Below are positions 10,562-22,598 of a stretch of 33,588 bases of DNA, in pieces. The first letter of the stretch is position 1. Each line of letters begins with the position of its first letter. The position numbers were made by a program, and so were the translations under genes. This stretch comes from Mycobacterium sp. (GTDB taxonomy: Bacteria; Actinomycetota; Actinomycetes; RYN-182): positions 1 through 33,588 of the forward strand of contig JAOPWU010000029.1 in assembly GCA_025965515.1 (NCBI GenBank), in the 5' to 3' direction. The notes beneath the pieces were generated by a model. It saw only the letters and a program-made list of their open reading frames with translations. It ran no database searches and was not told the origin of the DNA.

Positions 10562-13500
10562 ATGAAGACCGTCGGTGGCCTGCGCCCGGCCGGCGAGTGG
10601 CCCGCGAGGCCGCACGTGGAACAGAAGCTCGACAGCGCCGGAAGCCGCGTCTGCGTCGTCCTCGGCGTGGCGGGGTCCGGAAAGACGGCTGCGGTCGCCG
10701 CCTGGGCGCGCCGCCATCGCACGGTGTGGCTGGCGTACGAGCGGCGGCACGACGCCGCCTGGATCCTGCGGGTGATCGAGCGGGCGGTGGGGCAACGGGT
10801 GCCCCACGCCGTCCGCGAGGCCGCGGGGGAGACGGACGATGTCGACCGGCTGGGTGCGGCGGCGGCCGGGTTGTGCTCCTGGCTCCGGGAGGCCGTCGGG
10901 CCGGAACTCGTCGTCGTCCTCGACGATCTCCAGCGGTTCCCCCCGGGTGCTGAGGCCGTACGGCTCGTGGAGGGGATGTGCTGGTATGCCCCGCCGGGCC
11001 TGCGGATCGTCCTGGTATCCCGACGGGAGCCCCCGTTCTCGACCGCCCGGTTGCGGGGCCAGGGCCTGCTGACCGAGATCGACGCGGTGGACCTGGCTCT
11101 CGACGCGTCGGAGATCGCCGGCCTCGTGCCGGCGGTCAACGGGCCGGCCGAGGAGGGGACGGCCGGGCTCGCCCAGCGCATCCGGGAGCACACCGGGGGG
11201 TGGCCGGCCGCCGTCCACGCAGCGGTGACGGCGCTGGCGCGGGAGGACGGCGCCGGAGGGTCTTCGGCGCTGGAGCGCCTCGTGGCCCCCGGGGAGCGGT
11301 TCCACGCCTACCTGGCGGAGGAGGTGATCGGCCGGGAGCCCGACTGGGTGCAGGAGCTGTTGGTCCGGACCGCGGTGTTCGGCGGGATCACCAGCCCCGT
11401 GACGCTCGGCTCGGGGGACGGCGACCCCGGGGTCGTGCTGGCGGACCTGACCCGCCGCGGCCTCCTGCGGGAGACGTCCGGGGACGACCCGCGCTGGACC
11501 CTCGTGCCGCCGCTCGCCCGCTTCTTCGAGCACGACGGCGTGGTGGCCGGCCCGTCCCGGGCGGAGCTGCACGCTGCCGCGGCCGGTGAGTGCATGACGC
11601 GCGGGGCCTACGGCGACGCGCTGCGGCACCTGGTCGCCGCGGGGGACCGCGAGAGGACGGCGATCGTGCTCCGGCACCACGGCTCCAGCCTGGTGAGCGG
11701 GGGTCACGCCGACGCCGTGCTGCGGGCGGCGGAGCTGGTCCCCGGTCACCCCGACGACGCCCGGTTCCAGCAGGTCGTCGGCGAGGCGCGGCAGCTGCGC
11801 GGCCACTGGGCGGCCGCCTTCACCTCCTACCAGCGCGCGGCCGGCGAGGGAGACCGGATCCTCCCGGACCTGGCGTGGCGGATCATGGCCATGCTGCAGA
11901 TGCAGGGGGAGTTCGGCCAGGTGCCCCGCCTGTTCGACAGGGTGGCCCTGCGCCGCGAGGACACCCCCGACGAGTCCTGGGTGCTGGCGCACGCGGCCAG
12001 CGCCTACCGCCTGCTGGGGGACCACGCCAACGCCCGCCGTCTCGCCGACCGGTCCGTAGCCGCTGCTCAGCGCTCCGGCCGGCCGGGGGCGCACGGGCCG
12101 GCCCAGAACGTGCTGGCCATGCTCGCCGCCGCCGAGGGTGACCGCCGCGGGCTGGAGGCGCACTACACGAGCGCGCTCGAGGCGGCGGCCGCGGAGAACG
12201 ACCGCGTCCGGGTGGGGTGGATCCGCATCTCCCGGGCCATCCACCTCTTCGAGCTGGGATCCACGGGGGAGGCGGCGGCGGAGGCCGAGGCGCTGCGGAC
12301 GCTCGGTGACCAGTACGGGATCCCGTTCCTGCAGGCGCACGCCCTGACGGTGTCCGGACGCGCGGCCTTGCGGCTCGGCGACCCGGAAGCGGCCGCGGCG
12401 GACCTGTCCGCCGCGCTCGAGCTGTTCCAGCAGATCGGTTCCGGCTTCCTGGCCTGGCCCCTGGCGGCCCTCGGGGACCTGTACCGCCTCCGCGGCCAGC
12501 TCGCCCGGGCCCGGGCGGCCTACGAGGAGGCCCTGCGCACGGCTGAGGCGGGCCCCGACGCCATCGGGACGTCGCACGCGCTCCTCGGTCTGGCGCGCGT
12601 GCGGGCCGCCGACGACCTCACCGTCGCCCGCCCGCTGGCCCAGCGGGCGATGGCGCTCGACGAACCGCTCCACCGCGTCGAGGCCCTCCTCACCCGCGGG
12701 TGGGTGACCCTGCTCGCGGGCGACCGGCGCTCCGCCGCCACGGACGCGGCGCGGGCGGGTGCCGAAGCGCGGCGCCGCAGGGACGACCTCGGCCTCGCCG
12801 AGGCCGTCCTGCTGAGCGTCCAGTCCTCGAAGACCCCGGGGAAGGACGCCCAGCTGCTCGACGAGGCGATCGCGATCTGGCAGGAGGCCGGCTGCTTCCT
12901 CGAGGAGGAGGCAGCGCGGCTCGTGGCGGCGACGCTCGGCGGGGCGCCCTCCCGGCTGGAGGCGGACCGGGCGGCGCAGGCGCTGCGCGCCCGCGGCGTC
13001 GAGGTCGAGTCCCGCCAGGCGGCCGGCCCGGTGGCGGTCCTGCTGCGCTCGGCCCCGACGGTGTCCGTCCGCGCCCTGGGCGTCTTCCAGGTGGTACGCG
13101 ACGGGGAACCCGTGCCCAAGGCGGCCTGGCAGTCGAAGAAGGCCCGGGACCTGCTGAAGATCCTGGTCGCCCATCGCCGGCCGGTGCCGCGGGACCGGCT
13201 CGCGGAGCTGCTCTGGCCGGGCAGCGACCCGGCGCGCTCGGCCAACCGCCTGTCCGTGTTGCTCTCGACGCTCCGGGATGTCCTGCAGCCCGGGCGGGAC
13301 GGGGTGGGTCCGCTCCGGTCGGACGGCGCGGCGGTCTGGCTGGATCCGGCGCGGGTGCGGGTGGACGTCGAGGACTTCCTCGAGCGTGTCGACGCCGCCC
13401 TGGACGCCTTCCGCGGCGGCCGGCCCGAAGCTGCCGACCAGCTCGAACAGGCGGTCGCCGCCTACGGTGGCGACCTGCTGGAGGACGACCCCTACGAGGA

Positions 13501-13816
13501 CTGGGCCGCGCCGCTCGCCGAGGAGGTGCGCGCGCGCCACATCGCCCTGCTCCGGGCCCTCATCGCGTGCTTCCGCGCGTCCGGCGACCTCGACCAGGTC
13601 ATCCGCTACGGCTTACGGCTCCTGCAGCAGGACCCGTACGACGAGGAAGTGCGGCTCGACCTGGTGGCCGCGCTGCTCGACGCCGGGCGGCTGGGTGAGG
13701 CGCGTCGGCACTACGACGTCTACGCGCGCCGGATGCGGGAGATCGACGTCGAGCCCCGGCCGATGCCGCGCCCGCCGCGGACGATGCAGCCGGGGTGGCA
13801 GGGGCGGCTGGCGTAG
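10562..13816 (+). CDS. Large transcriptional regulator: N-terminal P-loop ATPase, TPR region, C-terminal winged helix + BTAD (MalT/SARP-like)
   Basis: Walker A GVAGSGKT, Walker B LVVVLDDLQ; C-terminal VRALGVFQVVRDGEPVPKAAWQSKKARDLLKILVAHRRPVPRDRLAELLWPGSDPARSANRLSVLLSTLRDVL...; BTAD-type repeats follow. Confidence 0.88.
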   Translation: MKTVGGLRPAGEWPARPHVEQKLDSAGSRVCVVLGVAGSGKTAAVAAWARRHRTVWLAYERRHDAAWILRVIERAVGQRVPHAVREAAGETDDVDRLGAAAAGLCSWLREAVGPELVVVLDDLQRFPPGAEAVRLVEGMCWYAPPGLRIVLVSRREPPFSTARLRGQGLLTEIDAVDLALDASEIAGLVPAVNGPAEEGTAGLAQRIREHTGGWPAAVHAAVTALAREDGAGGSSALERLVAPGERFHAYLAEEVIGREPDWVQELLVRTAVFGGITSPVTLGSGDGDPGVVLADLTRRGLLRETSGDDPRWTLVPPLARFFEHDGVVAGPSRAELHAAAAGECMTRGAYGDALRHLVAAGDRERTAIVLRHHGSSLVSGGHADAVLRAAELVPGHPDDARFQQVVGEARQLRGHWAAAFTSYQRAAGEGDRILPDLAWRIMAMLQMQGEFGQVPRLFDRVALRREDTPDESWVLAHAASAYRLLGDHANARRLADRSVAAAQRSGRPGAHGPAQNVLAMLAAAEGDRRGLEAHYTSALEAAAAENDRVRVGWIRISRAIHLFELGSTGEAAAEAEALRTLGDQYGIPFLQAHALTVSGRAALRLGDPEAAAADLSAALELFQQIGSGFLAWPLAALGDLYRLRGQLARARAAYEEALRTAEAGPDAIGTSHALLGLARVRAADDLTVARPLAQRAMALDEPLHRVEALLTRGWVTLLAGDRRSAATDAARAGAEARRRRDDLGLAEAVLLSVQSSKTPGKDAQLLDEAIAIWQEAGCFLEEEAARLVAATLGGAPSRLEADRAAQALRARGVEVESRQAAGPVAVLLRSAPTVSVRALGVFQVVRDGEPVPKAAWQSKKARDLLKILVAHRRPVPRDRLAELLWPGSDPARSANRLSVLLSTLRDVLQPGRDGVGPLRSDGAAVWLDPARVRVDVEDFLERVDAALDAFRGGRPEAADQLEQAVAAYGGDLLEDDPYEDWAAPLAEEVRARHIALLRALIACFRASGDLDQVIRYGLRLLQQDPYDEEVRLDLVAALLDAGRLGEARRHYDVYARRMREIDVEPRPMPRPPRTMQPGWQGRLA

Positions 13817-13997: not shown

Positions 13998-16718
13998 ATG
14001 GTGGACCGTGGAGCGGCTCTCACCGGGGGCCCCCGCCCGTCCGTCACCAGCGACCGCCCCGCGTTCGAGCAGCTGCTCCGGGACGCGCTGCGGCAGGCGG
14101 GCCGGGCCGGCTCCTGGCAGGTCGTGGACGGGCCCCTCTGGTGCTCCGCGTCCCCGCTCGGCGCCACCGCCGCCCCGTCGCAGGGCTGGAAGTTGCATGT
14201 CTCGGCGACGCCCGCCTCCGCTGCGGCCGTCCTCGCCCGGGCGCTCCCCGTCCTGGTCGCGGGTGACTCGGCGTTCAAGTTCGCCCGCACGCCGCAGACG
14301 GTGGCGGAGCTGAACGGACGCCACACCCCGCGCGGCCAGTCGGGCAAGGTCCTCACCGTCTACCCCAGCAGCGACGCGGAGGCCGTCCGGCTCGCGGCGC
14401 TGCTGGACGCCGCCACCCGCGGCCTGCCGGGGCCGCGCGTGCTGTCCGACCGCCCGTACGCGCCCGGCAGCCTCGTCCACTACCGCTACGGCGCGTTCGC
14501 GGAGCAGCGCCGGATCTCCTCCGACGGCCAGTACTCCTGGGTGATCCTCGACCCCGACGGCAACCCGGTCGAGGACCTGCGCCTCGGCCAGTACCTGCCG
14601 CCGTCCTGGGCGCGGTGTCCCTTCCCCGATGCGGCCCCGAGGCGTCCCGCCGCGACGCCCGGAGACCGCGGGGTGCTGATCGGCGGCCGCTTCCTCGTCC
14701 GTGAGGCGATCCGTCACGCCAACAAGGGTGGCGTCTACCGGGCGGTGGACACCCGAACCGGGGACGAGGCGATCCTGAAGGAGGCCCGCCCCCACGTGGC
14801 CGCGGACGCGGCGGGCCGGGACGTCCGCGACCTGCTGCGTGCCGAGGCACGGGTGCTCGAGGTGCTCGGCCGCCGCGGCGTCGCGCCGCGGCTGCTCGCC
14901 ACCTTCGAGCAGGGCGGTCACCTGTTCCTGGCGGAGGAGCACGTGCCGGGGGAGCCGCTCCGCGTGTGGGTGCTGGACCGGATCCGCGAGGCGGGCTGGC
15001 GGCGGAACACCCCGGAGGCCCTGCGCCTCGCCGACCGGCTGATCGCGTTGCTGGAGACCTCGCACCGGGCGGGGTTCGTGCTCCGCGACTTCACGCCCAA
15101 CAACGTCATGGTCCGCCCGGACGGACGGCTGCAGCTGATCGACCTCGAGCTCGCGGTGCGCACCGCCGAGGCGGCCGACGCGCCGGGGGGCACCGGCACG
15201 CCCGGCTTCGCCGCCCCCGAGCAGATGCGCGGGGCGCCGGCCGCCCTGGAGGCGGACTCCTACAGCCTCGGCGCCAACCTGTGCTTCCTCCTGCTGGGCA
15301 GCACGCCGGAGCTGCTCGACGAGGGCGCGGAGGGCCGTCCCCTGAGCACCCGGCTCGCCGAGTGGCTGCGGGTCCGCCGGACGCCCGAGGCGCTCGTCCC
15401 GCCGATCCTGGGGCTGATGGACCCGGAGCCGGCCCGCCGCTGGACCCCCGCCGAGGCCGCCCGGGCCCTGGCACCCGCGCTCCGCCGGCCCCCGCCGGCG
15501 GCCGGCGGCTCCCGCGACCTTCCCCACCCCGACCCGCTCGACAGCGGCCTGTGGCGCGAGGTGGTGGACGGCCTCGTCAGCCACCTGCTCGGCGCGATGG
15601 ACCCGGCCGACCCGGAGCGGCTGTGGCCCGTGTCCCCGGCCCACGGAGACCCCGACCCGTGCATCGTGCAGCTCGGCACGGCGGGGATCCTCGGCGTCCT
15701 CACGCGCTGCCTCGAACTCACGGGGGACCCACGGCTCCCGGCGGCGGTGGCCACCGCGGCCCGGTGGACAAGCCGGCACGCCGCCGGCGACTCCGAGCGC
15801 GCGCCAGGCCTGTACTTCGGCCGGGCCGGCATCGCGTGGGCGCTCTACGAGGCCGGCCGGGTGCTGGGCGACGGCGACCTCGCGGCCCAGGGCCTCGCGC
15901 TCGCCGCCGGGCTGCCGGTCGACCCGGGGTCGTACGACGTCACGCACGGGACCGCCGGCATCGGTATGGCCCTGCTCCACCTGGGGCGCAGCGCCGGCCG
16001 GGAGGACCTGGTCCGGCGTGCGGGCGAGGCCGCCGCCGTCCTGGTCGCGGCGGAACGGGATGCGGACACGGCCGACGGCCTCCTGTGGCCCACGCCCGCG
16101 GCGGCAGCGTCCCCGACGGCGGGTGGCCTGTACTACGGCTTCGCACACGGCACGGCGGGCGTCGCTGCGTTCCTCCTCGCCACCGGCCGCCCCGACGGCC
16201 GCAGGACCGCGGTCCGTGCCGGCGAGACGCTGCTCGCCGCGGCCACCGTCGCCGACGGCGTGGCGCTGTGGGGCGCCGGGCCGGGAGACCCCACGACGGC
16301 GCCCTACTGGTGCCACGGCTCGGCCGGCATCGGGAGCTTCCTGACCCGCCTGTACCGGGTCACCGGCGACGACCGCTACCAGGAGGCCGCGCGCGGGGCC
16401 GCGACCGCGGTGCTGGAGAACGCCTCCCGGGGCGTCCTGGGCCAGTGCCACGGCCTGGCCGGTAACGGGGAATTCCTGCTCGACCTGGCGGACACCGGGG
16501 ACCGGGCGCACCACGAGGAGCAGGCCACCGAGGTGGCGCGCATCCTCCTGGCCAGCCGCGCGCACCGGTCCGGCGCCGTGGTGTTCCCCGACGAGACCGG
16601 GACGGTGTCGCCGACCTGGGCCGACGGCACCAGCGGCATCCTGGCGTTCCTGCTCCGGCTGCGGTACCGCTCGCCGCGGCTGTGGCTGGTCGAGCCCACC
16701 GGGGATGGGCGCCCATGA
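13998..16718 (+). CDS. lanL: Class III/IV lanthionine synthetase (lyase-kinase-cyclase); Zn ligands intact, so class IV LanL-type
   Basis: Lyase region QGWKLHVSATPASA, FKFARTPQTVAELNGRHTPRGQSGKVLTVYP; kinase region LRDFTPNNVMVRPDGRLQLIDLELA; LanC-like region HGTAGIG, YYGFAHGTAGVAAF, WCHGSAGIGSF, CHGLAGNGEFLLDL (Cys...Cys-His zinc ligands present). Confidence 0.93.
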   Translation: MVDRGAALTGGPRPSVTSDRPAFEQLLRDALRQAGRAGSWQVVDGPLWCSASPLGATAAPSQGWKLHVSATPASAAAVLARALPVLVAGDSAFKFARTPQTVAELNGRHTPRGQSGKVLTVYPSSDAEAVRLAALLDAATRGLPGPRVLSDRPYAPGSLVHYRYGAFAEQRRISSDGQYSWVILDPDGNPVEDLRLGQYLPPSWARCPFPDAAPRRPAATPGDRGVLIGGRFLVREAIRHANKGGVYRAVDTRTGDEAILKEARPHVAADAAGRDVRDLLRAEARVLEVLGRRGVAPRLLATFEQGGHLFLAEEHVPGEPLRVWVLDRIREAGWRRNTPEALRLADRLIALLETSHRAGFVLRDFTPNNVMVRPDGRLQLIDLELAVRTAEAADAPGGTGTPGFAAPEQMRGAPAALEADSYSLGANLCFLLLGSTPELLDEGAEGRPLSTRLAEWLRVRRTPEALVPPILGLMDPEPARRWTPAEAARALAPALRRPPPAAGGSRDLPHPDPLDSGLWREVVDGLVSHLLGAMDPADPERLWPVSPAHGDPDPCIVQLGTAGILGVLTRCLELTGDPRLPAAVATAARWTSRHAAGDSERAPGLYFGRAGIAWALYEAGRVLGDGDLAAQGLALAAGLPVDPGSYDVTHGTAGIGMALLHLGRSAGREDLVRRAGEAAAVLVAAERDADTADGLLWPTPAAAASPTAGGLYYGFAHGTAGVAAFLLATGRPDGRRTAVRAGETLLAAATVADGVALWGAGPGDPTTAPYWCHGSAGIGSFLTRLYRVTGDDRYQEAARGAATAVLENASRGVLGQCHGLAGNGEFLLDLADTGDRAHHEEQATEVARILLASRAHRSGAVVFPDETGTVSPTWADGTSGILAFLLRLRYRSPRLWLVEPTGDGRP

Positions 16719-18556
16719 CCGCGACCTACCTGCGTGACCGCTTCGCGTTCGCCTTCTCGCCCCGGGGGCGCTGGGCGGCCTGCCTGCGGCTGGCCGGTGA
16801 CCGGCGCACGCTGGAGCACTGGGCCCTGGGGACCGAGCCGCCCGTGCCCCGCACGGTCCACGTGGTCGACGCCACGGTCGACACCTCCGCGGCGCCCCTC
16901 GACGACGGCCGGATCGTCGTGGTGCAGCGGGAGCAGGCGGTCCCGCCGCGCTACCGGGTCCACCTGGTCTCCCCGACGGGGGACGGGCACGCCCGGCAGG
17001 AGATCGGCATGGTCCCGTCCTCCCTGGCGTGCCACGTGCTGGCTGCTCCGGGGGCGTCCCGGCTTGCCGTCGTGGTGGGCGTCGATGCGGAGCGTTCGAC
17101 GGTGTGGGAGGTGGCGGGCGAGCCGCCGCGGCTCACCGCGGTCGCGGAGCTGCCGGGCGCGGTGGACGGCGGCGCCTGGGCTGCCGCGGACGTGCTGGCG
17201 CTCAACCGGACCGACGACGCCGTGGGGACCCACGGGGTCGTCGTGGAGCTCCGGGACGGATCGTGGCGGCAGGTCTGGAACGTCTCCGAGGGCAGCGCCG
17301 ACGAGATCCTGCTCGCCAGCCCCGCGTCCGGGCTGCTCGTCGTGAGCACCGACGCCGGGGGCGTGCAGCGCCTGGGCTGGGGCCGGCTCGGTGAGCGCTC
17401 GGTCCGGTTCCCCGAGGCCCTCCGGCCCGCGGCGACGCCCTGTCGGGTCCTGGCCCTCGACGACCGGGGGGAGCGGTTGCTGGTCGATGCGCCCGCCGGT
17501 GCCTCGTCCCGGCTGTGCGTCGTCGACCTGGCCCGGGACGTGGCGGAACCGGTCCCCGGCCCGCCGTGCACGGTGTCGCCCCCGGCGTCGTGGGTCGGCG
17601 ACACCGTCCGCTTCGGGTACTCCGCGCCGGACTGCCCGCCGGCGCTCGGGACGGTGCGGCTCGGCCCCGACCCGCGGTGGTCGTCCGCCGGGGAGGGGGA
17701 CCGCCGGTGGGCCGGCGCCGGGCTCGTGGAGCTGGCCGGGGCGGCCGGCCCCGTCGAGGCGATCGTCTACGGGGGACCCGACTGGCGGCTCCGCGAGCAT
17801 CTGGTCCTGGCCTTGCACGGCGGTCCGCTGGCGGCCTGGCAGTGCGCGTACGACCCCCTGTTCGCGGAGCTGGTCGACGCCGGTGCCGCCGTCGTCGCCC
17901 CGAACTACCGGGGCAGCACCGGCTACGGCGAGGACCACCTGCGGGCGGTGCTCGGCCACTGGGGCGGCCCGGACCTCGCCGACGTGCTGCGCATCGGCCG
18001 GGATCTCCTCGCGGCGCGGGGCCCCGGTCGCCCCCGGCCCGTGCTGGTGGCCGCCAGCTACGGCGCGTACCTGGGACTGCTCGCGGCCTGCGAGGAGCCC
18101 GGCCTCTGGTCCGGCTGCGCGGCGCTGGCGCCGTTCCTGTCACCGGCCGCCCTGCACGCGAGCGGCTCTGCCGCCGTCCGCGACCGGGTCGAACGGCTCG
18201 GCGGGCTCGAGGGCCCGGCCCCGGACGTGCTGCGTGCCTGCGACGCCCTGACCGTTCCCCTGCTGCTCGTCCACGGCGCCGACGACACGACGATTCCCGC
18301 CGACGGGTCGCGGGCGCTGCACCAGCGGCTGCTCGCCCTGGGACGGCGTGACGGCGTCGACGTCGACTTTCTGCAGCCCGCGGCCGACCACACGGCGGTC
18401 GGCCTCTGGCAGGAGGAGGGGCTGCGGCGGCGGCTGCGCGACTTCTGCCTGCAGCCCCGACCCGCGCCACCGACCGCGGTGGCCGCCACGGCGGGCCGTC
18501 CCCCCAGACCACCTGCGCACCCGCTGCCCGCTGTAGAGGGCGGTGCCCGCAGGTAG
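16715..18556 (+). CDS. S9-family prolyl oligopeptidase-like peptidase (candidate leader protease)
   Basis: ATGA overlap with lanL; LALHGGPLAAWQCAYDPLFAELVDAGAAVVAPNYRGSTGYGEDH, nucleophile VLVAASYGAYLGLLAA, LLLVHGADDTTIP (Asp), ADHTAVGLWQ (His). Confidence 0.88.
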   Translation: MTATYLRDRFAFAFSPRGRWAACLRLAGDRRTLEHWALGTEPPVPRTVHVVDATVDTSAAPLDDGRIVVVQREQAVPPRYRVHLVSPTGDGHARQEIGMVPSSLACHVLAAPGASRLAVVVGVDAERSTVWEVAGEPPRLTAVAELPGAVDGGAWAAADVLALNRTDDAVGTHGVVVELRDGSWRQVWNVSEGSADEILLASPASGLLVVSTDAGGVQRLGWGRLGERSVRFPEALRPAATPCRVLALDDRGERLLVDAPAGASSRLCVVDLARDVAEPVPGPPCTVSPPASWVGDTVRFGYSAPDCPPALGTVRLGPDPRWSSAGEGDRRWAGAGLVELAGAAGPVEAIVYGGPDWRLREHLVLALHGGPLAAWQCAYDPLFAELVDAGAAVVAPNYRGSTGYGEDHLRAVLGHWGGPDLADVLRIGRDLLAARGPGRPRPVLVAASYGAYLGLLAACEEPGLWSGCAALAPFLSPAALHASGSAAVRDRVERLGGLEGPAPDVLRACDALTVPLLLVHGADDTTIPADGSRALHQRLLALGRRDGVDVDFLQPAADHTAVGLWQEEGLRRRLRDFCLQPRPAPPTAVAATAGRPPRPPAHPLPAVEGGARR

Positions 18557-18610: not shown

Positions 18611-18817
18611 ATGGAGCTCGAGAGCATGGACCTGGTGGCCTCGCTGCAGGCGCTGCCCGAGACGGACCCGATCGAGGGCATCCAGTTCTGGAGCGGCGGC
18701 GGCAACAAGAAGCCCCCTCCGGGTGGCGGCGGCAACCGCACCTGTCAGTCCGCCTGCGTGGCGGCGCTGACGATCCAGGTGAACACCGTCTGCGTGCTCG
18801 TGGCCACCTGCGTCTGA
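18611..18817 (+). CDS. lanA: Class IV lanthipeptide precursor peptide (68 aa)
   Basis: MELESMDLVASLQALPETDPIEGIQFWSGGGNKKPPPGGGGNRTCQSACVAALTIQVNTVCVLVATCV; RBS GAGGAGA upstream. Leader ALPETDP and core TC..C...LT...NTVC...C resemble venezuelin VenA as recalled (MENHDIELLAHLHALPETDPVGVDGAPFAATCECVGLLTLLNTVCIGISCA). Confidence 0.92.
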   Translation: MELESMDLVASLQALPETDPIEGIQFWSGGGNKKPPPGGGGNRTCQSACVAALTIQVNTVCVLVATCV

Positions 18818-18867: not shown

Positions 18868-18945
18868 GCCTCTCGGCGGGGGCGGCCTGCGGGCCGCCTC
18901 CGCCGTCGGGATGTGGTTCGGAGTCTAGGGGGAGGGAGCCGCCCC

Positions 18946-20796
18946 GTGAGAGGTGCGGAGGGCCGCGGCCCGGCGCGGCCCCGCCCCGCGCGGCGTCGGC
19001 TGCTGTCGGGGTTCGCGGGTCCCGGGGGCGGCGAGCACCAGATCCGTGCGGTCGGCACGCGGCTCCTCCTGCGCAGCCTGGTCCAGGTGCGCCTGCCGGT
19101 CGCCGTCCTGGTGGTCGCAGCACTGCTGGGCACCGTCACGACCGTGCTGTTCCCCGCCGCGCTGGGCAGGGCGATCGACGCCGTCGTCACGGGACACGGC
19201 CTGCCGGGCGCGCTCGTGTCGGTGGGGGCGCTGCTCCTGACGGGCGTCGTTCTCGAGGCGGTCGACGATCTGGTCGGCACGTCGGTCGGCGCGTCGCTCA
19301 CGGCGTACCTGCGGCACCGGCTGCTTCGCCGGGCGCTCGGATGGGGCGGCGCGGAGCGGTTCCCGCCCGGTGACGTGCTGTCGCGGCTGGCCGTCAACGC
19401 CGACAGCGCGGCGGTGTTCCTGCCGGCCGTCATCGGTGGCGTCACGACGGTCCTCGTCGCGCTGGGGGGCGTGGCCGGCCTCGCCCTGATCGACTGGCGG
19501 CTCGCCGTGGCGTTCCTGCTCGGGACGCCCGTGGCCGTCGTCGTCGTCCGGGTTTTCCTCGTCCAGGCGGCCGGGCCATCGGTGCGGTACCAGGAGCTGC
19601 AGGCCACGCTGGTCGGCCGCCTGCTCGGGGCGTTCGAGGGTGTCCGCACGATCCGGGCGAGCGGCACGGCGGAGCGCGAGATCGAGCGCATCCTGCAGCC
19701 GCTGCCCGAGCTCCACCGCCTCGGGCGCCGGGTCTGGACGCTGCAGGGCCGGGCGAGCTGGCGGCTGACGCTGCTCACCCCCGCGGTGGAGGTGCTGGTG
19801 CTCGCGGTCGCGGGGTTCTCGCTGGTCCGCGGCCGCATCACGCCCGGGGAGCTGGTGGCCGCCGGGGAGTACGTCGGGATGGCCCTGGGGGCGATCGGGT
19901 TGGCGGACCAGCTGGTGTCGCTGCTCGGCTGCCAGGTCGGGGCCGGCCGGGTGGGTGAGGTCCTGGCGACGGAGGACTCGATCGCCCAGCCACCCGCGCC
20001 GCGGCCGCTGCCGGACGGCCCGGGCTGCGTCGAGCTGCGCGGCGTCACCGTCCGGGCGGGCGGCAAGGTCGTTCTCGACGCCCTGGACCTGACCGTCCCG
20101 GCCGGGGCGCAGGTGGCCCTGGTCGGTCGGTCGGGCGCGGGCAGGAGCACGCTCGTCTCCCTGGTGGGCCGGTTGCGGGATCCGGACGCGGGCGAGGTCC
20201 TGCTCGACGGGGTGCCCGTGCGGGAGGTGGCGCTGCCGGAGCTGCGGCGTGCCGTGAGCTACGCCTTCGAGCGGCCGGCCCTGCTCGGCGCCACGGTCCA
20301 CGACACCATCGCCTACGCGCGCCCGGCCGCCTCGCGCCGCGACGTCGTCCGAGCAGCCGTGGCGGCCCGGGCCGACAGCTTCGTGCGCAAGCTGCCCGAC
20401 GGCTACGACACCCCCCTGGCGCGGGCCCCGATGTCCGGGGGGGAGTTGCAGCGGCTGGGGCTGGCGAGGGCGGTCCTCGTGGCCGCCCGGGTGATGGTCC
20501 TGGACGACGCGACCAGCAGTCTCGACACGGCGACCGAGGCGCAGGTGACCCGGGCGCTCGCCACCGTCCTCGCCGACCGCACCTGTCTGGTGGTCGCCCA
20601 CCGGGCCGCGACGGCGGCGCGCGCGGACCTCGTCGCCTGGCTGGACGGCGGCCGCATCCGCGCGCTCGCCCCGCACCGCGCCCTGTGGGCCGACCCCGCG
20701 TACCGGGCGCTGTTCGCCGCCGGAGGCGACGGGTTCGCCGACCCGGACGCGACGGACGGCCGCCGGCCGCCCGTGGGCGCGGGGGCCGGGCCGTGA
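18946..20796 (+). CDS. ABC exporter half-transporter (TMD-NBD), degenerate-site subunit
   Basis: GTG at 18946 preceded by GGGGGAGGGAG (alternative GTG at 18913); multiple TM segments; NBD with GRSGAGRSTL (Walker A K to R), MSGGELQRLGLARAV signature, VMVLDDATSSLD (catalytic E to D), VVAHR. Confidence 0.9.
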   Translation: MRGAEGRGPARPRPARRRLLSGFAGPGGGEHQIRAVGTRLLLRSLVQVRLPVAVLVVAALLGTVTTVLFPAALGRAIDAVVTGHGLPGALVSVGALLLTGVVLEAVDDLVGTSVGASLTAYLRHRLLRRALGWGGAERFPPGDVLSRLAVNADSAAVFLPAVIGGVTTVLVALGGVAGLALIDWRLAVAFLLGTPVAVVVVRVFLVQAAGPSVRYQELQATLVGRLLGAFEGVRTIRASGTAEREIERILQPLPELHRLGRRVWTLQGRASWRLTLLTPAVEVLVLAVAGFSLVRGRITPGELVAAGEYVGMALGAIGLADQLVSLLGCQVGAGRVGEVLATEDSIAQPPAPRPLPDGPGCVELRGVTVRAGGKVVLDALDLTVPAGAQVALVGRSGAGRSTLVSLVGRLRDPDAGEVLLDGVPVREVALPELRRAVSYAFERPALLGATVHDTIAYARPAASRRDVVRAAVAARADSFVRKLPDGYDTPLARAPMSGGELQRLGLARAVLVAARVMVLDDATSSLDTATEAQVTRALATVLADRTCLVVAHRAATAARADLVAWLDGGRIRALAPHRALWADPAYRALFAAGGDGFADPDATDGRRPPVGAGAGP

Positions 20797-20813
20797 CCCA
20801 GGAAAGGGCGACC

Positions 20814-22598
20814 ATGGCGGAGGGAGCCCGGTTCCTGCGGGGCGCCCTCGGGAGCCGCCGCCGGGCCCTGGCCCGGCTCGCCGGCTACTCCCTGCTGGAG
20901 GGCCTGCCCTCCTTCGTCTCCGGCCTGTTCATCGCCACCGCGATCGATCGCGGTTTCCTCGCCGGCCGGTTCTGGGTCGGTGCCGCCTGGCTCGCGGCGC
21001 TGGCGGCGGCCTGGGTGGTCGGCGCGTTCGGGACTCGGCAGGCGTACCCGTGGCTGGCGGAGATCGTCGAGCCGCTGCGGGACACGCTCCTGTCCCGCCT
21101 GGTGGCCGCCTCGCTCGGGTCGGCGCTGCGGGACGAGGACGCCGCGCGCGGAGCGACCGTCGCCCGCGCGACCGTCCAGGTGGAGACCGTGCGGGCGCTG
21201 TTCTCCAGCCTGCTGCGCATCCTGCGCCAGCTGCTCACCTCCTGCATCGCCGCGGTCGGCGGCCTGGCGACCCTGTCGCCGCTCCTGGCGCTGTGCGCCT
21301 TGCTGTTCCTCGGCGTCGCAGTGCTGCTCTTCGTCGCGCTCCTGCCCGTGCTCGTCGCCCGGTACCGGGCGGTGGTGCTGGCCGAGGAGCAGGTCGGGGA
21401 GCGCGCGGCGCCGGTGGTGACGGGCGTCCGGGACGTGGTCGCGGCCGGTGCGCAGGAGCACGCCGCCCGGGACGTGGGGGAGGCGATCGACGCCGCGGCC
21501 CGGGCCACCCGGGCCTTCGCCCGGGCCCGGGCGTGGCGCCTGCCGGTCGTCGCGCTCGGCGCGGACTTCCCGCTGCTCGCGCTGCTGGCGGCGGCGCCGT
21601 GGCTGCGGACGCACGACCGGCTGACGGTGGGGGACATCGCCGGCGGGGTCGTCTACCTGTCGGCGGGGCTCGAGCCGGCCGTCCGGTTGCTGGTGAACGC
21701 GGCCGGCACCGTCCTCGTGACGCTGGGGGTCGTCCTGGGCAGGCTGGCGGAGGCGTGCCGGGAGCCCGACGCGCCGCCGGGGGCCGTCGGCGCCCTGCGG
21801 CCGTGCGGGTACGCCGTCCGCCTCGACGGCGTGACCTTCCGCTACGCCGAGCACGCCGCGCCGGTGCTCCGGGAGCTGGAGCTCGAGATCCCGGCGGGCG
21901 AGCACCTGGCCGTCGTCGGGCCGAGCGGCGCCGGCAAGTCCACGCTGGCGGACCTGCTGGCCGGCCTCCTCCGGCCGCAGGAGGGGTCGGTCCTGCTCGG
22001 CGGCGTGCCGCTCGAGGACCTCGACGAGCGCGAGCTGCGGCGCACCGTCGCGCTCCTGCCGCAGGAGGGCTACATCTTCGCCGGGTCGGTGCGGGAGAAC
22101 CTCGCCTACCTGCGTCCGGACGCGGACGACGAAGCCGTCACCCGGGCGGCCGCCGCCGTCGGACTGGACGCGACCGTCGCGGTGCTGGGGGGACTCGGCG
22201 CGGAGCTCGACCCGCGCAGCCCCATCCTCACGCCCGGCACCCGCCAGCGGATCGCACTGGCCCGCGCGCAGCTGTCGCCCGCCGCCGTCGTGGTCCTCGA
22301 CGAGGCGACGTCCCACCTCGATCCCGCGGCGGAGGCCGCCGCGGAGCGGCTCCTCGCCGACCGGCCGGGCACGCTCGTGGTCATCGCCCACCGGATCAGC
22401 TCCGCGCTGCGTGCGGACCGCATCCTGGTGCTGGACGGCGCTGCGGCGGTCGTCGGCCGCCACGAGGAGCTGCTCCGGACCAGCCCGCTCTACGCCGAGC
22501 TCGTCGGCTACTGGACCGATGCGCCGGACGCACCGGGCGTTGCCGGCCCGACCGCCCCCTGTCCCGTGGGCGCCCCGGACGGGCTCTTTCGCCTGTAG
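20814..22598 (+). CDS. ABC exporter half-transporter (TMD-NBD), partner subunit
   Basis: ATG at 20814 with GGAAAGG (or GTG at 20793 overlapping the previous stop); GPSGAGKSTL Walker A, degenerate signature LTPGTRQRIALARAQ, VVVLDEATSHLD, VIAHR. Confidence 0.9.
   Translation: MAEGARFLRGALGSRRRALARLAGYSLLEGLPSFVSGLFIATAIDRGFLAGRFWVGAAWLAALAAAWVVGAFGTRQAYPWLAEIVEPLRDTLLSRLVAASLGSALRDEDAARGATVARATVQVETVRALFSSLLRILRQLLTSCIAAVGGLATLSPLLALCALLFLGVAVLLFVALLPVLVARYRAVVLAEEQVGERAAPVVTGVRDVVAAGAQEHAARDVGEAIDAAARATRAFARARAWRLPVVALGADFPLLALLAAAPWLRTHDRLTVGDIAGGVVYLSAGLEPAVRLLVNAAGTVLVTLGVVLGRLAEACREPDAPPGAVGALRPCGYAVRLDGVTFRYAEHAAPVLRELELEIPAGEHLAVVGPSGAGKSTLADLLAGLLRPQEGSVLLGGVPLEDLDERELRRTVALLPQEGYIFAGSVRENLAYLRPDADDEAVTRAAAAVGLDATVAVLGGLGAELDPRSPILTPGTRQRIALARAQLSPAAVVVLDEATSHLDPAAEAAAERLLADRPGTLVVIAHRISSALRADRILVLDGAAAVVGRHEELLRTSPLYAELVGYWTDAPDAPGVAGPTAPCPVGAPDGLFRL

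Follow-up and report, generated by a model that had tools for sequence, protein, structure and literature searches.

In the window analysed here, a stretch of 33,588 nucleotides of a Mycobacterium sp. contig (JAOPWU010000029.1), a class IV lanthionine synthetase gene is followed directly by the gene of a serine peptidase of family S9. Because the same peptidase stands beside the synthetase in at least 75 clusters of relatives, it very likely helps to mature the thioether-ringed peptide of the cluster. It is probably a dedicated, cytosolic peptidase of the S9C type that cuts or trims the class IV leader in the spacer ahead of the core, with no need for proline at the site.

Table 1. Genes and features of the lanthipeptide cluster in the window.
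Feature	Position	Strand	Basis
lanL, class IV lanthionine synthetase (RamC_N, protein kinase and LanC-like domains)	13998..16718	+	NCBIfam NF038150, Pfam
S9 (S9C/acylaminoacyl-peptidase-like) serine peptidase, candidate class IV leader peptidase	16715..18556	+	613 aa; Pfam PF00326
lanA, 68-aa VenA-family class IV precursor	18611..18817	+	NCBIfam NF038147, 47.3 bits against a cut-off of 35
Gly/Pro-rich insert WSGGGNKKPPPGGGGN, leader-core spacer of lanA, holding the PPP tract	18692..18739	+	alignment with VenA-type relatives
ABC half-transporter 1, without C39 peptidase domain	18943..20796	+	Pfam ABC_membrane and ABC_tran only
ABC half-transporter 2, without C39 peptidase domain	20778..22598	+	Pfam ABC_membrane and ABC_tran

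The assignment of the cluster to class IV comes from the NCBIfam models. LanL scores 1054 bits against the class IV synthetase model NF038150 (cut-off 650) and 495.9 bits against the class III model NF038151, under the 575 cut-off of the latter, and the adjacent precursor belongs to the VenA family. By these scores the partner of the peptidase is a class IV enzyme, and not the linked class III LanKC that goes with a class III LanP of the FlaP type. The gene order is as the earlier note had described it: the peptidase gene starts at an ATG inside the final codon and stop codon of lanL, a four-nucleotide ATGA overlap, and lanA follows directly, its start 54 bp 3´ of the peptidase stop and a GAGGAG ribosome-binding site just 5´ of it. 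The precursor contains LPETDPIEGIQFWSGGGNKKPPPGGGGNRTCQSAC, and both KKPPP/GGGG and ETDP, which had been read in it before, are present in the translation. A search by Pfam for a C39 peptidase domain in the two ABC half-transporters found none; this pair is kept 3´ of the peptidase in most homologous clusters. Just upstream of lanL and on the same strand (10562-13816) lies the gene of a BTAD/TPR/AAA regulator of 1084 aa with a MalT-like N-terminal part, which may be the regulator of the cluster.

The order to which the source organism belongs contains this one genome only, and relatives were taken from other families of the same class. In a sample of 299 genomes of one such family (f90), a profile built from four homologues (A1) gave 56 peptidase matches in 49 genomes at E<=1e-70. 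Reading of the flanking DNA placed 55 of these 56 immediately 3´ of LanL in the same orientation; LanA and the ABC1-ABC2 pair usually come next. With 55 of 56 homologues so placed in an independent family, the arrangement is not a matter of chance. The sole exception (L121, G624:C1:4476341-4489201) is a half-length copy that comprises the C-terminal catalytic part and shows no LanL in the flanking DNA read; its genome also contains three full lanL-S9 clusters. In a second family (f3), the peptidase lies beside LanL at 21 fetched loci, 20 with a full LanL and one (L194) with only a partial LanL match. Together with the 55 loci from f90, these 20 bring the verified LanL clusters with the peptidase to at least 75 besides the window. 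The earlier note had named absence of the peptidase beside the lanL-lanA pairs of relatives as the observation that would count against it; at these loci the gene is present. Three f3 homologues (L221, L222 and L265) have no LanL nearby; they may represent a free-standing paralogue that gave rise to the cluster enzyme or descended from it.

Synthetase and peptidase have also changed in step. Across 76 pairs the correlation between their distance matrices is r = 0.956, a value reached in 0 of 1000 permutations, and the presence of the peptidase takes 15 changes on the LanL tree, against a mean of 41.7 and a minimum of 32 when shuffled. On account of the linkage to LanL, the distance correlation and an essentially invariant catalytic triad (below), the peptidase belongs as a dedicated component to one lineage of class IV clusters, and the suggestion that a dedicated S9 peptidase resides in such a cluster is thus upheld. 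The gene is not essential to class IV, since 79 of the 134 LanL matches listed in f90 are without it (about 41% carry it), and the many clusters that lack it count against the view of a dedicated protease, as do the homologues that have no LanL. By hand count, the peptidase-bearing LanLs in f90 all fall among the 63 best-scoring of the 134 listed. One LanL cluster (L230, G471:C12) with a more distant S9 peptidase, scoring 182 bits on the profile, stands between the peptidase-bearing and the peptidase-less groups.

The best Pfam match of the enzyme is Peptidase_S9 (PF00326; 54.4 bits, cut-off 22.6). The residues of its catalytic triad, Ser448, Asp524 and His559, are each invariant in an alignment of 44 sequences (A2), and of the 79 sequences in a larger alignment, 78 retain the serine and all 79 the aspartate and the histidine; because the triad is essentially invariant, the S9 enzymes of these clusters look active. 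A profile of the 44 homologues matched the acylaminoacyl peptidase structures 1ve6 and 2qzp at E 6e-42 to 7e-42, with profile positions 70-588 aligning to 75-580 of 1ve6 (E 7e-42), the propeller half included, and 7c72, a chain named prolyl oligopeptidase, at E 3e-24, which makes acylaminoacyl peptidases the best solved relatives. The N-terminal half of the enzyme aligns with the acylaminoacyl peptidase chain and not with single-domain esterases. The N-terminal domain of the S9A group (PF02897) was absent from the window protein and from all 44 homologues scanned. Because of the full-length profile match and the absence of PF02897, we call the enzyme S9C-like, placing it by sequence on the acylaminoacyl-peptidase branch rather than among the true prolyl oligopeptidases (S9A). 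The designation prolyl oligopeptidase in the earlier note therefore stands as the Pfam name of the S9 superfamily, with the PF00326 match behind it, and fails where a true prolyl oligopeptidase is meant. An S9C-like enzyme also carries a caution, in that the label "prolyl oligopeptidase family" does not mean proline-specific.

The closest solved relative is the acylaminoacyl peptidase of Aeropyrum pernix (1ve6, 2qzp; S9C), which shares its catalytic motifs with the window enzyme and, unlike it, is not found in a RiPP cluster. The nucleophile motif is AASYGAY in the window enzyme, mostly GxSYGAY in its relatives and GYSYGGY in the A. pernix enzyme. The core of this motif, SYGAY, resembles that of S9D. 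A Glu-specific, S9D-like cut was rejected: acidic residues occur in 105 of 106 spacers of peptidase-linked precursors but also in 40 of 45 controls, and S9C structures match best. A single-sequence AlphaFold2 model of the enzyme had a mean pLDDT of 43.9 and was too poor for a fold search.

In the maturation pathway that we favour, LanL would first install the rings in LanA. The S9C-type peptidase would then cut or trim the leader in the short acidic spacer that runs from the LxxL(P) motif to the first core cysteine. Export of the product would fall to the ABC1-ABC2 pair, which is devoid of a peptidase domain. The peptidase could be the principal leader protease, or it could do the trimming after a cut by an M1 (AplP-like) enzyme. 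We infer that LanA is the substrate, and likewise the cytosolic location, the timing and the place of the cut in the spacer; inspected by eye, the S9 protein shows no obvious signal sequence. S9 enzymes have a propeller-and-gate architecture that favours short peptides, a preference that is consistent with precursors of 34-68 aa.

A different division of labour appears unlikely, one in which the initial cut falls to an M1 enzyme of the AplP type and the S9 enzyme is left to clear residual leader residues off the core or to degrade the freed leader. In its favour, many S9C enzymes act on short peptides, and the host genome encodes two M1 peptidases (C152, C260) as well as at least two other strong S9 genes. 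From outside the cluster, AplP-type M1 enzymes are known to process the leaders of class III peptides and of SflA, a class IV peptide (PMC10885120), and such an enzyme elsewhere in the genome could be doing the cutting here. However, the two M1 genes lie outside the cluster and are identified by Pfam family only, not as AplP-type, and the tight linkage and coevolution of the peptidase with LanL suggest a committed step.

The earlier note had proposed cleavage behind the PPP tract, or alternatively behind ETDP, by a proline-specific prolyl oligopeptidase, so that the mature peptide would begin with GGGGNRTC.... Both sequences do occur in LanA, and FlaP, an S9 enzyme of class III, cuts after Pro(-12) (PMC10885120), but comparison of the precursors and the S9C-like character of the enzyme make this decidedly improbable. 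We compared 106 distinct precursors encoded in 67 peptidase-bearing clusters with 45 whose LanL clusters lack the peptidase, all found by a rule (leader motif, cysteines and ribosome-binding site) under which a few may be wrong; five sequences representing the main leader types, one of them a composite of near-identical natural sequences, all match NCBIfam class IV families. PPP is present in 1 of the 106 peptidase-linked precursors, that of the window, and was rejected as a conserved cleavage site. The closest relatives read LPETDPxEIDGIQLGG-TCACVGLLTLLNTVCVGISCA, and the window has FWSGGGNKKPPPGGGGNR in place of LGG; the Gly/Pro-rich insert, whose exact borders depend on the alignment, is missing from all close relatives. 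The tract may have arisen locally as a cleavage site. On the reading we prefer, it would be a lineage-specific spacer and not a recognition site. A cut after ETDP is weakened as well: precursors of VenA-type clusters that lack the peptidase (L216, L217, L246 and L247) contain LPETDP just the same, so it is a feature of the leader rather than of the peptidase, and ETDP was discarded as a peptidase-specific site.

Proline as such fares little better. After the leader motif, spacers contain it in 61 of 106 precursors with the peptidase and in 32 of 45 without (p = 0.14), which is lower if anything. Directly before the first cysteine it is somewhat commoner with the peptidase (29 of 106 against 5 of 45; Fisher p = 0.033, uncorrected for relatedness), and this speaks for the proline-specific cut. 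On the other side, 16 of the 106 peptidase-linked precursors have no proline before the first cysteine and 9 have none at all, as exemplified by MTIDVDALQALESDELEAEGLVVDCTWTCSWTGSTF (L186), and in one peptidase-bearing cluster (L118) all three precursors lack a pre-core proline. If the enzyme is the leader protease, it does not depend on proline in these clusters, and proline dependence in general is disfavoured.

The spacers offer no simple substitute for proline. Among the 106 and the 45, there is no single motif that every peptidase-linked precursor has and every other precursor lacks. A conserved Leu/Phe in the spacer would fit an enzyme of the acylaminoacyl-peptidase type but is about as common without the peptidase (79 of 105 against 30 of 45, p = 0.32) and was rejected as unspecific. 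L[GST]G at the leader-core junction is seen in 25 peptidase-linked precursors and in 0 others; this association may reflect ancestry, because its carriers belong to two VenA-type clades. Among VenA-type precursors, LGG or LSG precedes TC where the peptidase is present, whereas FAA or FAD is found in a Streptomyces-like clade without it. The gene is also missing from one cluster inside the peptidase-bearing clade (L210), where the junction is AAD. LGG is replaced by FAA/FAD or AAD in all five of the peptidase-less VenA-type clusters L216, L217, L246, L247 and L210, which suggests that junction and peptidase change together, with few independent events behind the pattern.

Another role in the cluster, for instance hydrolysing the product for self-protection or removing an ester or other tailoring group, is highly improbable: S9 and related alpha/beta hydrolases are versatile and weak matches to esterase-type families occur in the same fold, but the alignment of the N-terminal half with acylaminoacyl peptidase and the precedent of S9 leader proteases beside RiPP precursors (PMC10885120) speak against it.

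S9 peptidases of lanthipeptide clusters are already known, and a class IV, S9C-type and proline-independent variant of them is plausible. FlaP processes the class III peptide flavipeptin (PMC10885120, ref 120) and resembles the window enzyme in being an S9 serine peptidase of a lanthipeptide cluster with proposed leader removal before export. It differs in its class III precursor and post-proline cut, where the window has a class IV LanL, an S9C-like enzyme and proline-free precursors in linked clusters; the analogy rests on function, FlaP being set beside the window enzyme by description only. NorP, encoded in the class III noursin cluster (PMC10206099), and LanPB of pneumococcal class III clusters, from a survey that lists cluster proteases in its supplementary tables (PMC7268733), are likewise S9/POP-family peptidases encoded beside synthetases and assumed to remove leaders; their partners are of class III, and they too are compared by description only. 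Outside the key class III/IV reviews and the SflA paper, the literature searched describes no S9 peptidase that has been characterised from a class IV cluster, and an earlier mention of S9 genes in such clusters is possible. The venezuelin cluster, venL-venA-venT-venH, has a precursor of the same NCBIfam family, a class IV synthetase and ABC export, but no protease gene (PMC2843593), whereas the window has one between lanL and lanA. Tentatively, and with some doubt, we suggest that a widespread, uncharacterised S9C-type group coevolving with class IV LanL removes leaders without regard to proline, and that venezuelin-type clusters, with PFAA rather than LGG at the junction, use another enzyme. 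If true, this would identify the maturation protease of class IV lanthipeptides in this lineage. A conserved S9C-type peptidase in so many LanL clusters and about 100 natural precursors make the question of the class IV leader protease directly testable, and the enzyme could prove useful in practice for freeing class IV core peptides.

The precursors themselves vary in further respects. The cysteines of LanA in the window are spaced more widely than in its relatives (C-3-C-11-C-5-C against C-1-C-10-C-4-C), and a separate Gly-rich expansion, GGGHGGGGGG, occurs at another locus (L204). In one cluster (L201, G767:C3:2337700-2349700), at least 10 class IV precursor genes stand in tandem behind lanL and the S9 gene; their leaders are similar and their cores differ.
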